NCBI RefSeq assembly: GCF_036250675.1
Contig: NZ_CP109592.1
Span: 5,766,001 to 5,830,000, forward strand
DNA length: 64,000 nucleotides
DNA from: Streptomyces sp. NBC_01689
GTDB taxonomy: Bacteria; Actinomycetota; Actinomycetes; Streptomycetales; Streptomycetaceae
Direction of reading: 5' to 3'
Part shown: positions 57,077 to 64,000 of the stretch, in pieces
How the letters are laid out: each line of letters begins with the position of its first letter
Position numbering within the stretch: position 1 is the first letter of the stretch
The notes under the pieces: model-generated
Database searches by the model: none
What the model saw: the letters and a program-made list of their open reading frames with translations, nothing else
Told to the model about the DNA's origin: nothing
Position numbers and translations under genes: made by a program

Positions 57077-57577
57077 TCACGCGGCGGGAAGGTCCAGCGG
57101 CCGCAGTTCGTCCGCGTACGAGACGGAGATCCGGCGCATCAGGCCGTCCTCGGTGATGTCGTACTGGCCCAGCCGCCACAGCGGCGGCGAGTAGGCGTGC
57201 AGCGAGACCGCGTCGTCGGTGGCGCCGGTGAGGCGGTGGATGTGCTCGGGGCCGAAGCAGAAGGACTCGCCGGCGCCGACGGTGACCGACAGATGGCTGC
57301 CGCCTATCCGCGGGTTGGTCTCGTTCAGCGCGCCCTGGACGACGGCGACGGCGCCGGAGGAGATGTCGTGGTCGTGCCAGCCCGTGTCGTTCTGCCGGGT
57401 CCAGCACAGCAGCCAGACGTCCACGTACTCGTCGCGGTACAGCGAGGCGTAGTGCCGCTCGTCGTCGGAGAACGCGACCTGTTCGCGCCAGCGGTCGGGG
57501 CGGGCGGCGAGGTCGTCGACGAGGGCCTGGAGTTCGCGCTTGTCGAGCGTGCGGTCCGGCAGGGCCTGGTACGTCAT
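57077..57577 (-). CDS. Cysteine dioxygenase-like cupin
   Basis: A 166-aa iron dioxygenase of the cysteine dioxygenase family. It has cupin motif 1 TGWHDHDISSGAVAVVQG (two His ligands) and motif 2 FGPEHIHRL (third His). It converts cysteine to cysteine sulfinate, the first step to taurine or sulfite. Its ATG overlaps the amidohydrolase stop by 4 nt, so it is translated with that gene and presumably under LacI control. The substrate could be another thiol such as 3-mercaptopropionate. Confidence 0.88.
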   Translation of the reverse strand: MTYQALPDRTLDKRELQALVDDLAARPDRWREQVAFSDDERHYASLYRDEYVDVWLLCWTRQNDTGWHDHDISSGAVAVVQGALNETNPRIGGSHLSVTVGAGESFCFGPEHIHRLTGATDDAVSLHAYSPPLWRLGQYDITEDGLMRRISVSYADELRPLDLPAA

Positions 57578-58467
57578 CGGGTGGCTCCCTTCAGCATGCG
57601 GTCGGGGTTGGCGGTGCGCAGGGCGTGGACGGCGGCGTCCGCGCCGAGGTCGGGGACGACGGGGGTCGCGTAGGGGCGGTCGCTGCCGCTGACGACCACG
57701 TCGACGCCCACGGCGCGGACGAGCGCGTCCACGGCGCGGGTTCCGTAGGAGGAGGTCTCGTAGAACACGTCGAAGTCGATCTCGCCCCGCCCGCCGCCGC
57801 GGGCCGCGAGCCGCTCGCCGTGCAGCGGGGCCAGTCCGGCGAGGGCCGCGAAGCAGACGCGCAGCCGGGGGTGGCGGGCGCGGCCGGAGGCGCGGAAGGC
57901 GAACCAGGACGCGTGCAGCTGGTGGAGGTAGGGCACCAGCGCCGGCCACCAGGGCGGGGCGTGCGGGGTCGGTGGCGCGGCGCCCGGATGTACGAACAGG
58001 GGTCTGTCCGCGCGGGTGAGGACGTCGAGGAGCGGCGCGTTGCGCTCCCAGCCGGCCGCGTCGAGCAGGGCGGTGGCGGGGAGCTGGAGGCCCACGCAGC
58101 CGCGGCGCAGCTCCCGTTCGACCGCCTCTGGGTCCGGTGCGGACAGACAGGGGGAGGCCCAGACGCGGAAGGGCGCGGGGAGTGCGAGCGCGCCGTCGTG
58201 GAAGGCGGCGAGCAGGGGCGTGGCCTCGGCCGGCGGCAGGAACTCGATGCCGAGGGGGCTGGACAGCGAGACCAGGGCCAGGTCGAGGCCGTCGGCGCGG
58301 GCGAGCGCGGCCCGGGCGGCGGGGTCGTGGTCGGCGGGGTCGACCTCGTACGGCGGCTCGCCCGTCAGATGCAGGGTCCAGCCGTCGAGGCGCGGGGGCG
58401 CGGTGCGGGCGCGCAGCAGCTCGATGAACGCGGGTGGCCAGAGGTGCTGGTGGACGTCGGTGGGCAC
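57574..58467 (-). CDS. Amidohydrolase 2 family protein
   Basis: A 297-aa TIM-barrel metal hydrolase or decarboxylase. The HxH metal motif is present as DVHQHLWP at the N-terminus, PLFVHPG supplies a further His, and VVVSGSDRPYATPV supplies the late Asp. This fits the ACMSD/amidohydrolase_2 family. GTG 58467 follows AAGGA. It is the first gene of the operon with cysteine dioxygenase and divergent from the LacI regulator. Substrate unknown. Confidence 0.8.
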   Translation of the reverse strand: MPTDVHQHLWPPAFIELLRARTAPPRLDGWTLHLTGEPPYEVDPADHDPAARAALARADGLDLALVSLSSPLGIEFLPPAEATPLLAAFHDGALALPAPFRVWASPCLSAPDPEAVERELRRGCVGLQLPATALLDAAGWERNAPLLDVLTRADRPLFVHPGAAPPTPHAPPWWPALVPYLHQLHASWFAFRASGRARHPRLRVCFAALAGLAPLHGERLAARGGGRGEIDFDVFYETSSYGTRAVDALVRAVGVDVVVSGSDRPYATPVVPDLGADAAVHALRTANPDRMLKGATR

Positions 58468-58633: not shown

Positions 58634-59638
58634 ATGGCCAGGCCCAATAAGCGCACCACCCTCCGGGAGGTGGCCGAGGCCACGGGCCTCTCCACCGCCG
58701 CCGTCTCGTACGCCCTGCGCGGCAAGCACGTCTCGAAGGAGACCGAGGAGCGGGTGCGCAAGGCCGCGGCCGAACTCGGTTACGAGGCGGATCCCATCGC
58801 CCGCGCGCTGGCCAGCGGCCGCACCAGCATGGTCGGCGTCCTCGCGGGGGACCTCCAGGACCTGTGGCAGCAGCAGTTGATGGCGGCGATCGGCCGGGAA
58901 CTGCTGGCCGGCGACCGGTACGCGCTGATCCTGGACGCGGGCGGCGATCCCGCGCGGGAGCTGGTCCTCGCCAAGCAGTTGCGCGACCAGCGGGTGGACG
59001 CGCTGCTGGTGTCGCCGGTGGATCCCTCGGCGGAGGGGTGGGCGGCGATCGCCGACGCCCTGCCGGTGGTGGCCGTCGGGGACTCGCTCAGCGCGGCCCG
59101 TACGGCGGGGCAGGTCATCTTCGACAACCGGGCCGGCATCGACGCGGTGCTCGAGTATCTGCACGGCCTCGGGCACCGCCGGGTGACGGTGCTGACCCCG
59201 ACCCGGCCGAGCACGCCGGACCGGCCCGCCGACGTGTATGTGGGCGAGGCCGCCGAGCGGCTCGGACTGCGAACCGAACTGGTGCCGTGTCCGCAGGAGT
59301 TGGGGGAGGCGACGGTGGTGGCGCGGCGGCTGCTGGACGGGCCCCGGCCCGCGACCGCGGTGTTCTGCTTCTCGGACTCGCTGGCCTACGGGGTGTACGC
59401 GGCGGCGGCGGAGGCGTCGCTCGTGGTCGGGCGCGACGTGTCCGTCGTCGGGTTCGACGACCATCCCGTCTCGCGGGTGCTGGCTCCGCCGCTGACCACG
59501 GTGGACTGGGGGCTGCCGGAGATCGCCGCGGAGGCCGCGCGGTTGACGGTCGCGGCGATCGAGGGGAAGCGGGTGCGGAGGAAGAGGATTCTGTGTGCGC
59601 CTCGGATGAGTGAACGGGGGTCGGCGGTACGGGTGTAG
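58634..59638 (+). CDS. LacI-family transcriptional regulator
   Basis: A 334-aa repressor. The N-terminal helix-turn-helix (TTLREVAEATGLSTAAVSYALRGKHVSKETEERVRKAA, residues 8-45) and hinge are followed by a periplasmic-binding-protein-like sensor domain (MVGVLAGDLQDLWQQQLMAAIGREL; VSVVGFDDHPVSRVLAPPLTTV). No Shine-Dalgarno; TAGGCT (58621-58626) lies 7 bp upstream, consistent with a leaderless transcript. Controls the divergent amidohydrolase/cysteine dioxygenase operon by position. Confidence 0.92.
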   Translation: MARPNKRTTLREVAEATGLSTAAVSYALRGKHVSKETEERVRKAAAELGYEADPIARALASGRTSMVGVLAGDLQDLWQQQLMAAIGRELLAGDRYALILDAGGDPARELVLAKQLRDQRVDALLVSPVDPSAEGWAAIADALPVVAVGDSLSAARTAGQVIFDNRAGIDAVLEYLHGLGHRRVTVLTPTRPSTPDRPADVYVGEAAERLGLRTELVPCPQELGEATVVARRLLDGPRPATAVFCFSDSLAYGVYAAAAEASLVVGRDVSVVGFDDHPVSRVLAPPLTTVDWGLPEIAAEAARLTVAAIEGKRVRRKRILCAPRMSERGSAVRV

Positions 59639-59770: not shown

Positions 59771-60703
59771 TCACGTCAGGTTCTTGGATTTCAGCCACGC
59801 GTCCGCGACCTCGTCCGGGTCCTTCCTCTCCTTGTCCACCAGGCGGTTGAGCCCGGTCAGCTCCTCGGCGGTGAGCACGTTGCCGAGGGAGGCCAGTGCC
59901 TTGCGCACCTTCGCGTCGGCCTTGCGGGAGGCGATGAGCGGGACGATGTGCTGGGAGGGGATGAGGTTCAGCGGGTCGGTGAGGACGACCCAGCCGTTCT
60001 CGATGACGTCCACGTCCGTGGTGAAGACGTTGGCGACGTCGATGTCCCCCTTCTTCAGGGCGCCCTTGACCAACGGCCCCGAGGAGTCGAGGGACTTGAA
60101 CTCCTTGAACTCCACGCCGTACCGGTCCTTGAGGCCCACCGCGCCGACGACCCGCTTCTTCATCTCGGCCGCGGCGCCCAGGACCAGCTTCCCGTTGGCC
60201 CTGCGCAGGTCGGCGAGGCTCTTCAGACCGTACTTGTCGGCCGTCTCCCGGGTGACGGCGAAGCTGTCGCGGTCCTCGGCCGCCGCGTACGGCAGGACTT
60301 CCAGACCGGCGGGCAGCACGGTCGTCAGGGTGTTCTGCATGGCGCCGGCCTCGGTGTCCGTGGCCTTCTGGTCCAGGTAGAGGAGCAGGCTGCCCTGGTA
60401 CTCGGGGAGCAGGTCGATGTCGCCGCCCTCCAGCGCGGGCACGACGATCTCGCGCGAGCCGAGGTTGGGGCGGACCTTCGTCCTGATGCCCCCGGCCGAC
60501 AGCACGCCCGCGTACAGGTAGCCGAGGATCTGGTTCTCGGTGAAGTTGGCGGTGCCGATGGTCAGGCCGCCGGCGCTGGATCCGGAGCCGCCGCCGCTGC
60601 CGCCGCCCGAGTCGTCGAGGGAGGTGATGCCGCCGCCGCAGGCGGCCAGGGCGGGGACGGAGGCCGCGGCGAAGAGGCCTCCGAGCAGAGTCCTACGGTT
60701 CAT
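59771..60703 (-). CDS. Quaternary-amine ABC transporter binding lipoprotein (OpuAC/ProX-like)
   Basis: A 310-aa lipoprotein. The signal peptide MNRRTLLGGLFAAASVPALAAC ends at lipobox Cys22, a GSGGGSGSS linker follows, then an OpuAC-type domain (GTANFTENQILGYLYAGVL; LLPEYQGSLLLYL; DRYGVEFKEFKSLDSSGPL). The family binds glycine betaine, choline, carnitine or similar trimethylammonium compounds through aromatic residues. It is the last gene of a four-gene operon. The exact ligand cannot be read from sequence. Confidence 0.9.
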   Translation of the reverse strand: MNRRTLLGGLFAAASVPALAACGGGITSLDDSGGGSGGGSGSSAGGLTIGTANFTENQILGYLYAGVLSAGGIRTKVRPNLGSREIVVPALEGGDIDLLPEYQGSLLLYLDQKATDTEAGAMQNTLTTVLPAGLEVLPYAAAEDRDSFAVTRETADKYGLKSLADLRRANGKLVLGAAAEMKKRVVGAVGLKDRYGVEFKEFKSLDSSGPLVKGALKKGDIDVANVFTTDVDVIENGWVVLTDPLNLIPSQHIVPLIASRKADAKVRKALASLGNVLTAEELTGLNRLVDKERKDPDEVADAWLKSKNLT

Positions 60704-60717
60704 GGTTCTTCGGCTCC

Positions 60718-61392
60718 TCAGTGGGCGGCGGCGGTACGGAGATGACGGAAGAGGTAGCGCTGGAGTCCGGCCAGCGCGAGATCGAGGACGACCGCGACGA
60801 CCGCCACCAGGACGGCGCCGCCGAGGACCTGGACGAGGTCGCGCTGCGCCAGGCCGTCGAAGACGTACCGGCCCAGGCCGCCGAAGCTGACGTACGCGGC
60901 GATGGTGGCGGTGGACACCACCTGGATGAGGGAGAGGCGCAGGCCCGTCATGATCAGGGGGAGGGCGAGCGGGATCTCCACCTGGAAGAGGACCTGGTGG
61001 CCGCGCATGCCCTGGCCGCGGGCCGCGTCCTTGACCTCCGGGTCGACGGCGGTCATGCCCGCGTAGGTGTTGGTGACGATGGCCGGGACCGCGAGGACGA
61101 CCAGGGCGACGTACACCGACCACAGCGACAGGCCGCTGATCAGGAAGACCAGGACGACCAGGCCCACGGTGGGCAGCGCGCGGCCGAAGGAGGACAGGTT
61201 GATGGCGAGGAACGCGCCCCGGCCGGTGTGACCGATCAGCAGGCCGACCGGCAGTGCGATCGCGGCCGCGATGAGCGTCGCGAACAGCGAGTACTCCAGG
61301 TGTTCGGCGATCCGGTGCGCGATGCCGTCGGAGCCGGCCCACTGGTCGCCGCTGACCAGCCACTTGGCGAGGTTCTCGAAGAGTTCGTACAT
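60718..61392 (-). CDS. Quaternary-amine ABC permease
   Basis: A 224-aa permease of the ProW/OpuCB-D type with about five helices and the EAA-like loop AARGQGMRGHQVLFQVEIPLALPLIMTGLRL that contacts the ATPase. One base separates its start from the upstream permease stop. It pairs with the permease at 61394-62035. Confidence 0.9.
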   Translation of the reverse strand: MYELFENLAKWLVSGDQWAGSDGIAHRIAEHLEYSLFATLIAAAIALPVGLLIGHTGRGAFLAINLSSFGRALPTVGLVVLVFLISGLSLWSVYVALVVLAVPAIVTNTYAGMTAVDPEVKDAARGQGMRGHQVLFQVEIPLALPLIMTGLRLSLIQVVSTATIAAYVSFGGLGRYVFDGLAQRDLVQVLGGAVLVAVVAVVLDLALAGLQRYLFRHLRTAAAH

Positions 61393-61393
61393 G

Positions 61394-62035
61394 TCAGGCT
61401 CGCCGCCTCGTCCAGGGGGTGAGTACGTACTGGACCGCGACCAGCAGCGCGTCCGCGACCAGGGCCAGCAGCAGGGTCAGTACGACGCCGACGATCACCG
61501 GCGTCGGGAAGTTGCGCTGGAATCCGTCGGTGAAGAGCTGGCCGAGTCCGCCGTCGCCGATGTACGTGGCGACGGAGACGAGGGAGATCGACATCACCGT
61601 CGCGATGCGGACCCCCGCCATGATCACCGGCAGGGCGAGCGGGAGCTCGACGGTGAGGAGGGTGCGCAGCGGGCGGGTGCCCATGGCCTTCGCGGCCTCC
61701 TTCGTCTTCACGGGGACCGAGTCGAGACCCTCGACGGTGTTCCGCAGCAGGACGACGAGGGAGTAGATCGTCAGGCCGATCACCGTGGTGGTGCGGGTCA
61801 GACCGCTCACCGGGAGGAGGAGGACGAAGATCGCGATCGAGGGGATCGTGAAGAGGACGTTCGAGAGGCCGAGGAGCGCCCCGCGGAGGGCGCGCACCCG
61901 GTGGGCCAGGACCGCCAGCGGGAGGGAGATCACCAGGCCGAGGAGGACCGCGGAGAGCGCGGCCTGCAGATGGGAGAGGGTGAGGGAGGTCAGGTCGTCG
62001 GTGTGGTCGCCCAGCCAGGACCAGTCGATGGTCAT
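61394..62035 (-). CDS. Quaternary-amine ABC permease
   Basis: A 213-aa permease. The EAA-like loop is EAAKAMGTRPLRTLLTVELPLALPVIMAGVRI. ATG 62035 overlaps the stop of the ATPase gene by 4 nt. Two different permeases form the heterodimeric channel typical of OpuC. Confidence 0.9.
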   Translation of the reverse strand: MTIDWSWLGDHTDDLTSLTLSHLQAALSAVLLGLVISLPLAVLAHRVRALRGALLGLSNVLFTIPSIAIFVLLLPVSGLTRTTTVIGLTIYSLVVLLRNTVEGLDSVPVKTKEAAKAMGTRPLRTLLTVELPLALPVIMAGVRIATVMSISLVSVATYIGDGGLGQLFTDGFQRNFPTPVIVGVVLTLLLALVADALLVAVQYVLTPWTRRRA

Positions 62036-63072
62036 ATGGCGACGCCCGCGGTGCCGTGGGCCCTGGCGGCGTGCTCGTGGATGTCGTCCCGGGAGGTGAC
62101 GCCGGTCAGCGCGCCCTGCGCGTCGACACGTGCCACCAGGCCGGCCGGCGAGGCGATCGACTCGTTCAGGGCGGCGAGCAGGGAGTCGCCGTCGCGCAGC
62201 GGCCGTACGGGGAAGGTGGTGTCGCCGGAGGCGGAGCGCCAGCTCAGCGGGTGGCGGTCCGCGTCGAGGGCGAGGGTCCAGGCGCCGCCCTCGGGGGCCG
62301 GGCCCTGTGGCACGTCGGCGAGGTTCGCCAGCGAGAGGAGCTTCAGACCGCGCTCGGCGCCCAGGAAGTCGGCGACGAAGTCGTCCGCCGGGCGGGCGAG
62401 CAGTTCGGCGGGGCTCGCGCACTGCACCAGATGTCCGCCGGTCCGGAAGATCGCGATCTGGTCGCCGAGCCGGACGGCCTCGTCGACGTCGTGCGTGACG
62501 AAGACGATGGTCTTGTTCAACTCCTTCTGCAGCCGCAGCAGTTCGTCCTGTAGCTGGGTGCGCACCACCGGGTCGACCGCGCCGAAGGGTTCGTCCATGA
62601 GCAGGACGGGCGGGTCGGCGGCGAGTGCGCGGGCCACGCCGACGCGCTGCTGCTGGCCGCCGGAGAGCTGGTGCGGGTAGCGCTTGCCGGCGTCGGCGGC
62701 CAGACCGACCGTCTCCAGGAGCTCGGCCGCCCGGGCGCGGGCCTTCCGGCGGCCCCAGCCCAGCAGCAGCGGCACGGTCGCGATGTTGTCGAGCACCGTG
62801 CGGTGCGGGAAGAGGCCGGACTGCTGGATGACGTAGCCGATGGAGCGGCGCAGTTCGGCGGCGTCCCGTTCCAGGACGTCCTTGCCCCCGACGCGGATGG
62901 TGCCGGAGGTGGGATCGACCATCCGGTTGATCATCCTCAGGGTGGTGGTCTTACCGCAACCGGAGGATCCGACGAGGACGGTCACGCCGCCTTCCGGCAT
63001 TTCCAGAGAGAGGTCGTGGACTGCGGTGGTGCCGTTGGGGAAGCGCTTGTGGACCGTGTCGAACTGGATCAT
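62032..63072 (-). CDS. Quaternary-amine ABC ATPase with CBS-type tail
   Basis: A 346-aa ATPase with Walker A GSSGCGKTT, signature LSGGQQQRVG and Walker B LLMDEPFGAVDP. The C-terminal 90 residues include a CBS-like half (LRDGDSLLAALNESIASPAGLVARVDAQGALTGVTSRDDI). In OpuA/OpuC such domains sense ionic strength or nucleotides. ATG 63072 follows AAGGGA; an upstream ATG at 63105 is less well placed. First gene of the operon. Confidence 0.92.
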   Translation of the reverse strand: MIQFDTVHKRFPNGTTAVHDLSLEMPEGGVTVLVGSSGCGKTTTLRMINRMVDPTSGTIRVGGKDVLERDAAELRRSIGYVIQQSGLFPHRTVLDNIATVPLLLGWGRRKARARAAELLETVGLAADAGKRYPHQLSGGQQQRVGVARALAADPPVLLMDEPFGAVDPVVRTQLQDELLRLQKELNKTIVFVTHDVDEAVRLGDQIAIFRTGGHLVQCASPAELLARPADDFVADFLGAERGLKLLSLANLADVPQGPAPEGGAWTLALDADRHPLSWRSASGDTTFPVRPLRDGDSLLAALNESIASPAGLVARVDAQGALTGVTSRDDIHEHAARAHGTAGVAI

Positions 63073-63090
63073 GAGGTGTCCCTTGCCCGG

Positions 63091-63110
63091 TCTGCATATC
63101 GTCATGCAGA
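63091..63110. promoter_or_regulatory. Inverted repeat upstream of the ABC operon
   Basis: TCTGCAT-ATCGTC-ATGCAGA is a perfect 7-bp inverted repeat 19 bp before the ATPase start. On the minus strand a TTGACA -35 (63132-63137) lies upstream of it, so a bound protein would block the operon. Confidence 0.55.
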
Positions 63111-63214: not shown

Positions 63215-64000
63215 ATGTCGTCTCGGAATGTGGACACGTTCGGCGTCGTGGACGCACCGGTCACGGCCGGGCTCGTGGTCCTGGACGGGTGCGGCACCGG
63301 CGTCGCGGACATCGTCCGGCTCGCCGACGGCACCGCCCGCCCGGTCCCCGGCACCGAGGCGATGAAGCGCGTCGAAGCGTCCTGGGACGCCGCCCGGCAG
63401 ATCGCGGCGACCGGCAGGGTCTACGGCCGCTCCACCGGCGTCGGCGCCAACCGGAACGAGGACGTGCCGACCGAGGCCGCCGCCGAGCACGGCCTGCGGC
63501 TGCTGCGCAGCCACGCCGGGGCGATCGGCGAGGAGCTCCCCGCCCGGCAGGTACGGGCCATGCTCGCCGTCCGCGCCAACCAGTTGCTGGCGGGCGGGGC
63601 GGGGCTGCGGCCCACCGTCGTCACCGCGCTGTGCGAGGCGCTGGAGACCGGGGCGTACCCCGTCGTGAACGAGTTCGGATCGGTCGGCACCGGAGACATC
63701 GCGGCGCTGGCCCAGCTCGGACTGGCCCTCGTGGGCGAGCACCGGTGGAGGGGAACCGACGCCCCGAAGCCGCAGCCCCTCGACAACAACGACGCCCTCG
63801 CGCTGATCAGCAGCAACGCGCTCACCCTCGGCCAGTCCGCCCTCGCCCTGCACGAGCTGCGCGGACTGATCGCGGCCACCCAGGTCGTCGCAGCGCTGTC
63901 ACTGGTGGCCGTGGACGGTTCGTACGAGGCGTACGCCGCCCCCGTGCACGCCGCGCGACCGCACCGGGGCTCCGGCGAGGTCGCCCGGCGGATGCGGGAA
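63215..64000 (+). CDS. Histidine/phenylalanine ammonia-lyase-like protein without MIO triad (partial, right edge)
   Basis: The first 262 residues; the gene runs off the window. The fold matches aromatic amino acid lyases: VYGRSTGVGANRNE (Tyr70 equals the catalytic Tyr of histidine ammonia-lyase), LLRSHAGAIGEELP and RANQLLAGGAGLRP. Where the family has GSVGASGDLAPL this protein reads GSVGTGDIAALA (157-164), so Ala-Ser-Gly, which cyclises to the MIO electrophile, is missing. The NGT that follows in true enzymes is SSN (199-201). ATG 63215 follows AGGGGAG. It is divergent from a quaternary-amine importer, which suggests elimination from a trimethylammonium substrate; that is inference. Confidence 0.8.
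   Translation, partial: MSSRNVDTFGVVDAPVTAGLVVLDGCGTGVADIVRLADGTARPVPGTEAMKRVEASWDAARQIAATGRVYGRSTGVGANRNEDVPTEAAAEHGLRLLRSHAGAIGEELPARQVRAMLAVRANQLLAGGAGLRPTVVTALCEALETGAYPVVNEFGSVGTGDIAALAQLGLALVGEHRWRGTDAPKPQPLDNNDALALISSNALTLGQSALALHELRGLIAATQVVAALSLVAVDGSYEAYAAPVHAARPHRGSGEVARRMRE

Follow-up and report, generated by a model that had tools for sequence, protein, structure and literature searches.

A gene for a MIO-less protein of the histidine/phenylalanine ammonia-lyase (HAL/PAL) fold was found next to an OpuC-type ABC transporter operon in Streptomyces sp. NBC_01689, at the end of the 64,000-nucleotide stretch that was analyzed (the window; bases 5766001-5830000 of the larger contig, in a genome of 9.96 Mb). 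Comparisons across genomes showed that such lyases form a conserved, importer-linked family of Actinomycetota that lies outside the ergothionase clade. The MIO group turns a primary amine into a leaving group, and elimination of primary amines is not expected in its absence, whereas a trimethylammonium group can leave unaided. We give an even chance to the reading that the lyase splits trimethylamine off N-trimethylated histidine without a cofactor, hercynine (histidine betaine) being the most likely substrate. The fuller proposal, that a hercynine trimethylamine-lyase with a dedicated importer would be a new activity and a second, cofactor-less entry to the hut pathway in Actinomycetota, one that evolved alongside HutH and differs from ergothionase, is offered with slightly less confidence.

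The lyase reading frame begins with an ATG at 63215 and is open up to position 64000, which is only the edge of the window. In the genome sequence beyond, the gene runs on to a stop at the window equivalent of 64735, giving a product of 506 amino acids, and its stop codon overlaps by four bases the start of the next gene, which encodes an RpiR-type regulator. The Pfam Lyase_aromatic model matched the protein at 383 bits. The score against the NCBIfam hutH model was 290.5 bits, below the cut-off of 539.15, and together with the loop motif this ruled out a HutH equivalog; a true HutH, with CSG and NGT intact, is encoded elsewhere in the same genome. A second MIO-less lyase, 55% identical to that of the window, is found at 8.37 Mb (L005:9783-18001). 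Its own binding-protein gene adjoins it, while the permeases and ATPase stand about 5 kb off, beyond a four-gene block that we take to be conservon-like. Table 1 lists the features of the window and of related loci.

Table 1. Location of the features in the window and, where a locus number is given, in stretches from other replicons.
Feature	Position	Strand	Basis
MIO-less lyase (506 aa, of which residues 1-262 in window)	63215..64000	+	ORF list, Pfam, alignment
Inverted repeat CTGCAT-N6-ATGCAG, operator-like	63092..63109	.	divergent promoter region
ABC transporter ATPase, OpuC-type operon	62032..63072	-	PF00005, 129.9 bits
ABC transporter permease 1 (presumed)	61394..62035	-	ORF list
ABC transporter permease 2 (presumed)	60718..61392	-	ORF list
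Lipoprotein substrate-binding protein, OpuAC domain	59771..60703	-	PF04069, 168.8 bits
LacI-type regulator (presumed)	58634..59638	+	ORF list
Amidohydrolase-like protein (presumed), DVHQHLW motif	57574..58467	-	ORF list
Cysteine-dioxygenase-like cupin (CDO_I)	57077..57577	-	family match
Ergothionase-type lyase, S. meliloti 1021 pSymA	L144:7977-9575		alignment
SVGYLS-type HAL relatives, ORF starts	L054:11155, L056:2566, L057:12529, L064:11220, L065:11200	+	alignment, tree
AAGE-type HAL relative	L087:11882-13354, L125:13491-14927	-	alignment

When aligned with the HutH of the same genome, the loop that would form MIO reads EFGSV-G-TGD-IAAL in the lyase and GSL-G-CSGD-LAPL in HutH. The lyase loop is one residue short: the G-(A/C)SG-D of HAL has become G-TG-D, the Ala/Cys-Ser-Gly triad is absent, and the NGT of HAL corresponds to SSN. 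Tyr70, the equivalent of HAL Tyr53, is retained. The initial annotation had described a protein of the HAL/PAL fold in which Ala-Ser-Gly is replaced by Gly-Thr-Gly with one residue deleted, NGT is lost and the catalytic Tyr is kept; the alignment with HutH, HALs and ergothionases, the Pfam match and the structural model described below agree with all of these points, and the comparison with ergothionase and HALs that it had proposed as a check uncovered no intact MIO triad in the lyase. A sequencing artefact was ruled out as the source of the deletion: a whole-protein similarity search gave 4801 homologues, and all 120 of those listed have GTGD and SSNA.

The alignment had 94 rows (43 of the lyase class, 25 MIO-bearing, 20 ergothionase-type, five of a GYL kind and three unassigned), a tally that counts two plasmid rows, and three proteobacterial rows were kept apart. 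Because rows were classed according to the loop motif, the loop count holds by construction; independently of the motif, the whole-protein similarity search yielded one row of this class from each of the 43 loci, and a sample of them forms one clade. The equivalents of Tyr53, His83, Gln277, Arg283 and Glu414 (HAL numbering) are kept in 43/43 actinobacterial lyases and in 20/20 ergothionase-type rows, and that of Phe329 in 41 of the 43 lyases. Asn195, retained in all 25 MIO-bearing rows, is replaced by Ser in 43/43 actinobacterial lyases and 19/20 ergothionase-type rows, and the three proteobacterial rows combine the one-residue deletion with Ser at 195. The position of Tyr280 differs between the groups: 38 of the 43 actinobacterial lyases have Tyr or Phe there (Tyr281 in the 506-residue lyase), and all 23 ergothionase-type and proteobacterial rows have Leu. 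The conservation of the catalytic set in all 43 rows, together with the linked importer, argues against an inactive relative of HutH that serves in regulation, and against a lyase for some other kind of substrate that does without MIO. Such a protein would fit the absence of MIO and the RpiR-type regulator gene whose start overlaps the lyase stop, but we regard it as very improbable.

Other unusual HAL relatives were observed. A second MIO-less kind, with the loop SVGYLS and SGTTS around the NGT place, forms its own clade, and in 5 of 21 loci its gene is separated by a few kb from that of an ergothionase. In another, found near a MIO-less lyase, AAGE replaces the MIO loop and Arg occupies the His83 position.

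Ergothionase lacks MIO, as stated in PMC13405746. The enzyme from Treponema denticola (PDB 6s7j) has the HAL fold with the same one-residue MIO deletion, the loss of NGT and a GVGxN loop, and the lyase is built likewise; the catalytic Tyr/His/Arg/Glu set is kept in ergothionase relatives as well as in the actinobacterial lyases. Nonetheless, the two groups share only about 25% identity, form separate clades and differ in the residue at HAL 280. With HutH the lyase has in common the fold, most active-site residues and hut neighbors, at about 29% identity, whereas the Ala/Cys-Ser-Gly and NGT of HutH are both missing from it. The lyase clade received support values of 100/99 and 100/100, and stood beside the ergothionase clade (100/100) and not inside it. 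The first tree used 71 of the 94 rows and the second 52; near copies were removed by eye, and the second tree also excluded two odd rows. After removal of the motif columns, the support for a joint lyase and ergothionase side was just 74/92, and many rows have an odd letter make-up; a single shared MIO loss for the two groups was thus not established. The AlphaFold2 model of the lyase (pLDDT 92.5) had ergothionase 6s7j as its best Foldseek match (TM 0.88), and VIA-align placed 6s7j level with tyrosine aminomutase and one HAL. An ergothionase-type MIO-less lyase was also found on pSymA, the symbiosis megaplasmid of Sinorhizobium meliloti 1021; some strains have it annotated as hutH.

The operon divergent from the lyase encodes an ABC ATPase and a lipoprotein with an OpuAC binding domain, and two open reading frames, which we take to be the permeases from their place, sit where those of an OpuC-type system would be expected. 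The start of the ATPase at 63072, which has an AAGGGA-like ribosome site upstream, was preferred over that at 63105; the latter is disfavored because the stretch 63072-63105 is one base shorter in seven of eight aligned relatives and hence is not read in frame. The 142-base spacer between the ATPase and lyase genes contains an inverted repeat that, in the form CTGYAT-N6-ATGCAG, was present in nine of nine aligned rows (the window and eight relatives). It is probably an operator of the RpiR-type or the LacI-type regulator. The exact site occurs once in the genome, and a regulon was rejected, as this one and three two-mismatch sites compare with three sites for the reversed control. Beyond the operon lie a gene for what is presumably a LacI-type regulator, a relative of which recurs beside the lyase in other genera, and overlapping genes (by 4 bases) for the CDO-like cupin and a protein that we take to be amidohydrolase-like, which matched neither Pfam at 1e-3 nor NCBIfam at 0.01.

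The lipoprotein matched ProX and EgtUC structures with E values of 1e-22 to 1e-20. In AfProX numbering, Tyr63, Glu145 and Arg149 are retained, while Lys13 is Ala, Tyr190 is Phe and Tyr214 is Gln; the 107-111 region of this alignment is uncertain. EgtUC, according to PMC9732360, uses Lys242, Gly244, Phe293 and a Tyr cage. The first three positions are occupied by Ala, Phe and Tyr in the lipoprotein, and the cage is changed. The EgtU binding domain is of the same superfamily and its Glu375 and Arg379 have kept equivalents in the lipoprotein, whereas the binding protein of the window is a separate lipoprotein. The adjacent divergent operon (59771-63072) had been annotated initially as an importer of the OpuC/EgtU type. 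The first half of that name is upheld by the PF04069 and PF00005 matches; the second was rejected on the altered equivalents of Lys242, Gly244, Phe293, Tyr419 and Tyr443. Among 32 binding proteins from lyase stretches, 25 have this same changed site and that of L086 alone is classical; the remaining six could not be compared, their two halves being in swapped order. We infer from these residues that the changed site may correspond to one distinct ligand class and not to ergothioneine held in the EgtU fashion. The six swapped proteins (L046, L047, L113, L114, L115 and L116) are all encoded by circularly permuted open reading frames, the front of which matches residues 171-309 of the window protein and the back residues 34-168; in one branch of the system the OpuAC domain is thus naturally permuted.

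The linkage was assessed in 43 lyase loci, which are not independent (two from the genome of the window, 20, four and 15 from searches of the order, phylum and class, and two from a plasmid collection), in stretches of 7.7 to 20 kb. The controls were 17 HutH stretches from 17 genomes, four of which also have the lyase elsewhere; one control stretch is 11 kb. A matching ATPase and permease were found in 32/43 lyase stretches versus 0/17 controls, which sustains the initially noted tie between the lyase and a quaternary-amine-type importer; outside Streptomyces the numbers were 18/26 versus 0/17 (P 3e-6, with rows that are not independent). No permease or binding protein was detected by tblastn with the window proteins in 21 ergothionase stretches, only two weak ATPases, in contrast to the OpuC-type importer near the actinobacterial lyases. 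At the strict cut-off (E <= 1e-105, which misses weaker or split matches) 10 of the 296 genomes from the phylum and 29 of the 394 from the class had the lyase family; with query P0001 at E <= 1e-60, so did 22 of the 60 from the order.

HutU was present in 18/43 lyase stretches (9/26 outside Streptomyces) and in 6/17 HutH controls; the linkage is thus no stronger than that to HutH, 25/43 stretches were without HutU, and part of it may be inherited position. In the Streptomyces genome hutU, an allantoate amidohydrolase (AAH) family gene and hutF, all above their NCBIfam cut-offs, lie about 5.8 kb past the lyase, outside the window, with a hutI-like gene, named by eye, nearby. The gene order varies between loci. 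In L043 the lyase, the transporter and HutU-AAH-HutF-HutI are contiguous, and L086 has the row HutH, transporter, lyase, AAH, HutU, HutF, HutI. On an Arthrobacter plasmid, ATPase-permease-permease-binding protein-HutU-lyase are on a single strand and look like one operon. By sequence matching, the importer link recurs across genera, and a predicted urocanate hydratase is beside or near the lyase in a large minority of loci. It is improbable, in our judgment, that the substrate is another quaternary betaine, such as an aromatic betaine, and that the hut genes are close by chance or inherited position: the stretches without HutU and the second MIO-less lyase of the genome, next to a binding protein of its own, would suit this idea, but HutU is adjacent in several families and shares one apparent operon with the lyase.

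The type of hydratase bears on the choice between trimethylated histidines. The thiourocanate hydratase route (NCBIfam NF058530; ErtE, NF058540) likewise combines a hydratase of the HutU superfamily with a MIO-less lyase, but the hydratases of the actinobacterial loci score as urocanate hydratase proper. Eight of the 18 hydratases from lyase loci were scored, that downstream of the window lyase and seven from other loci; all passed the urocanate hydratase cut-off of 375 (875-933 bits) and failed the thiourocanate hydratase cut-off of 930 (626-681 bits). The hydratase linked to the window lyase scored 900.2 and 647.6 bits, respectively. A Burkholderia arboris hydratase encoded one gene from an ergothionase-type lyase passed both, with 1050 bits for thiourocanate and 706 for urocanate hydratase. 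Because the linked hydratases score as urocanate hydratase, hercynine is favored over ergothioneine: urocanate arising from a trimethylammonium precursor points to hercynine. The OpuC-type transporter would bring in the betaine, Tyr70 would act as the base that removes the beta proton, and trimethylamine would depart without MIO, as the quaternary nitrogen needs no activation. Arg284 may hold the carboxylate, and His100 and Glu415 the imidazole, roles that we assume from those of their positional equivalents in HAL. The product urocanate would be converted to glutamate via HutU, HutI, HutF and the amidohydrolase, so that hercynine splitting would be a second entry to the hut pathway, parallel to HutH. 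It weighs against this reading that an EgtD-family methyltransferase gene is present in the genome; an intracellular hercynine lyase would therefore need to be prevented from draining the cell's own ergothioneine synthesis.

Counting against hercynine, none of the transporter, HutU and CDO were present in 4/43 stretches, one of which has a binding protein, and the predicted binding-protein cage is unlike those of known betaine binders. Also against it, a close CDO-like gene in 12/43 lyase stretches (11/26 outside Streptomyces; 1/17 controls) points to a sulfur-containing substrate. The count would be 13 with the CDO gene of the window, 5.6 kb away, which falls outside the scanned stretch (L004) that starts at window position 58000. 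Since a dioxygenase hints at sulfur, ergothioneine is the main rival: the lyase would release trimethylamine and thiourocanate, the CDO-like cupin, with a rhodanese in some genomes, would oxidize the sulfur off to give urocanate and sulfite, and urocanate would enter the hut pathway. The best Foldseek match, an ergothionase, is consistent with it. Among 394 class genomes the CDO-like gene (E <= 1e-30) was found in 25, the lyase in 29 and both in 12, versus 1.8 expected (P 6e-9, a statistic that ignores kinship); the two genes are within 10 kb in nine of the 12 and on different contigs in three. Rhodanese and CDO_I genes adjoin the lyase in L087 (10132-11147), and in L045 (6473-7434) they stand upstream of the ATPase gene of the transporter, with CDO proteins 34-36% identical to that of the window. 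However, the CDO-like gene also occurs in 13 genomes whose detected lyases all bear MIO. The CDO/amidohydrolase-like pair has an existence apart from the lyase, as it is together in 15/15 stretches away from it (L170-L184), 12 of which are from such genomes (12 of the 13 were sampled). In family f86 the LacI-like, amidohydrolase-like and CDO genes are also grouped without the lyase, so the linkage there may be inherited position. Nor does ergothioneine agree with the 19 kb Arthrobacter stretch, in which no CDO match was found, the mostly missing EgtUC determinants, a Tyr280 position unlike that of ergothionases, or the nearby hydratases. A TudS-like desulfidase was considered and ruled out, there being no PF04463 match in the genome. 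Ergothioneine thus appears somewhat unlikely. Of the uptake and breakdown of ergothioneine or hercynine suggested initially, the MIO-less, importer-linked lyase stands and the hydratases favor hercynine; the EgtU-like importer does not stand, and the CDO-like gene keeps ergothioneine in consideration.

No Streptomyces lyase of the MIO-less kind and no hercynine lyase were found among the matches listed from the open-access literature, a weak absence. If the hercynine reading is correct, the family of MIO-less trimethylamine lyases would extend beyond the few ergothionases in the literature, and the system would provide a breakdown route for hercynine and a source of trimethylamine in soil. It would also set right the automatic annotation of Streptomyces relatives, among the matches listed, as 'histidine ammonia-lyase' or 'aromatic amino acid ammonia-lyase'. 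The lyase and importer near histidine-breakdown genes suggest a so far unrecognized feeding on trimethylated histidine by a soil bacterium.
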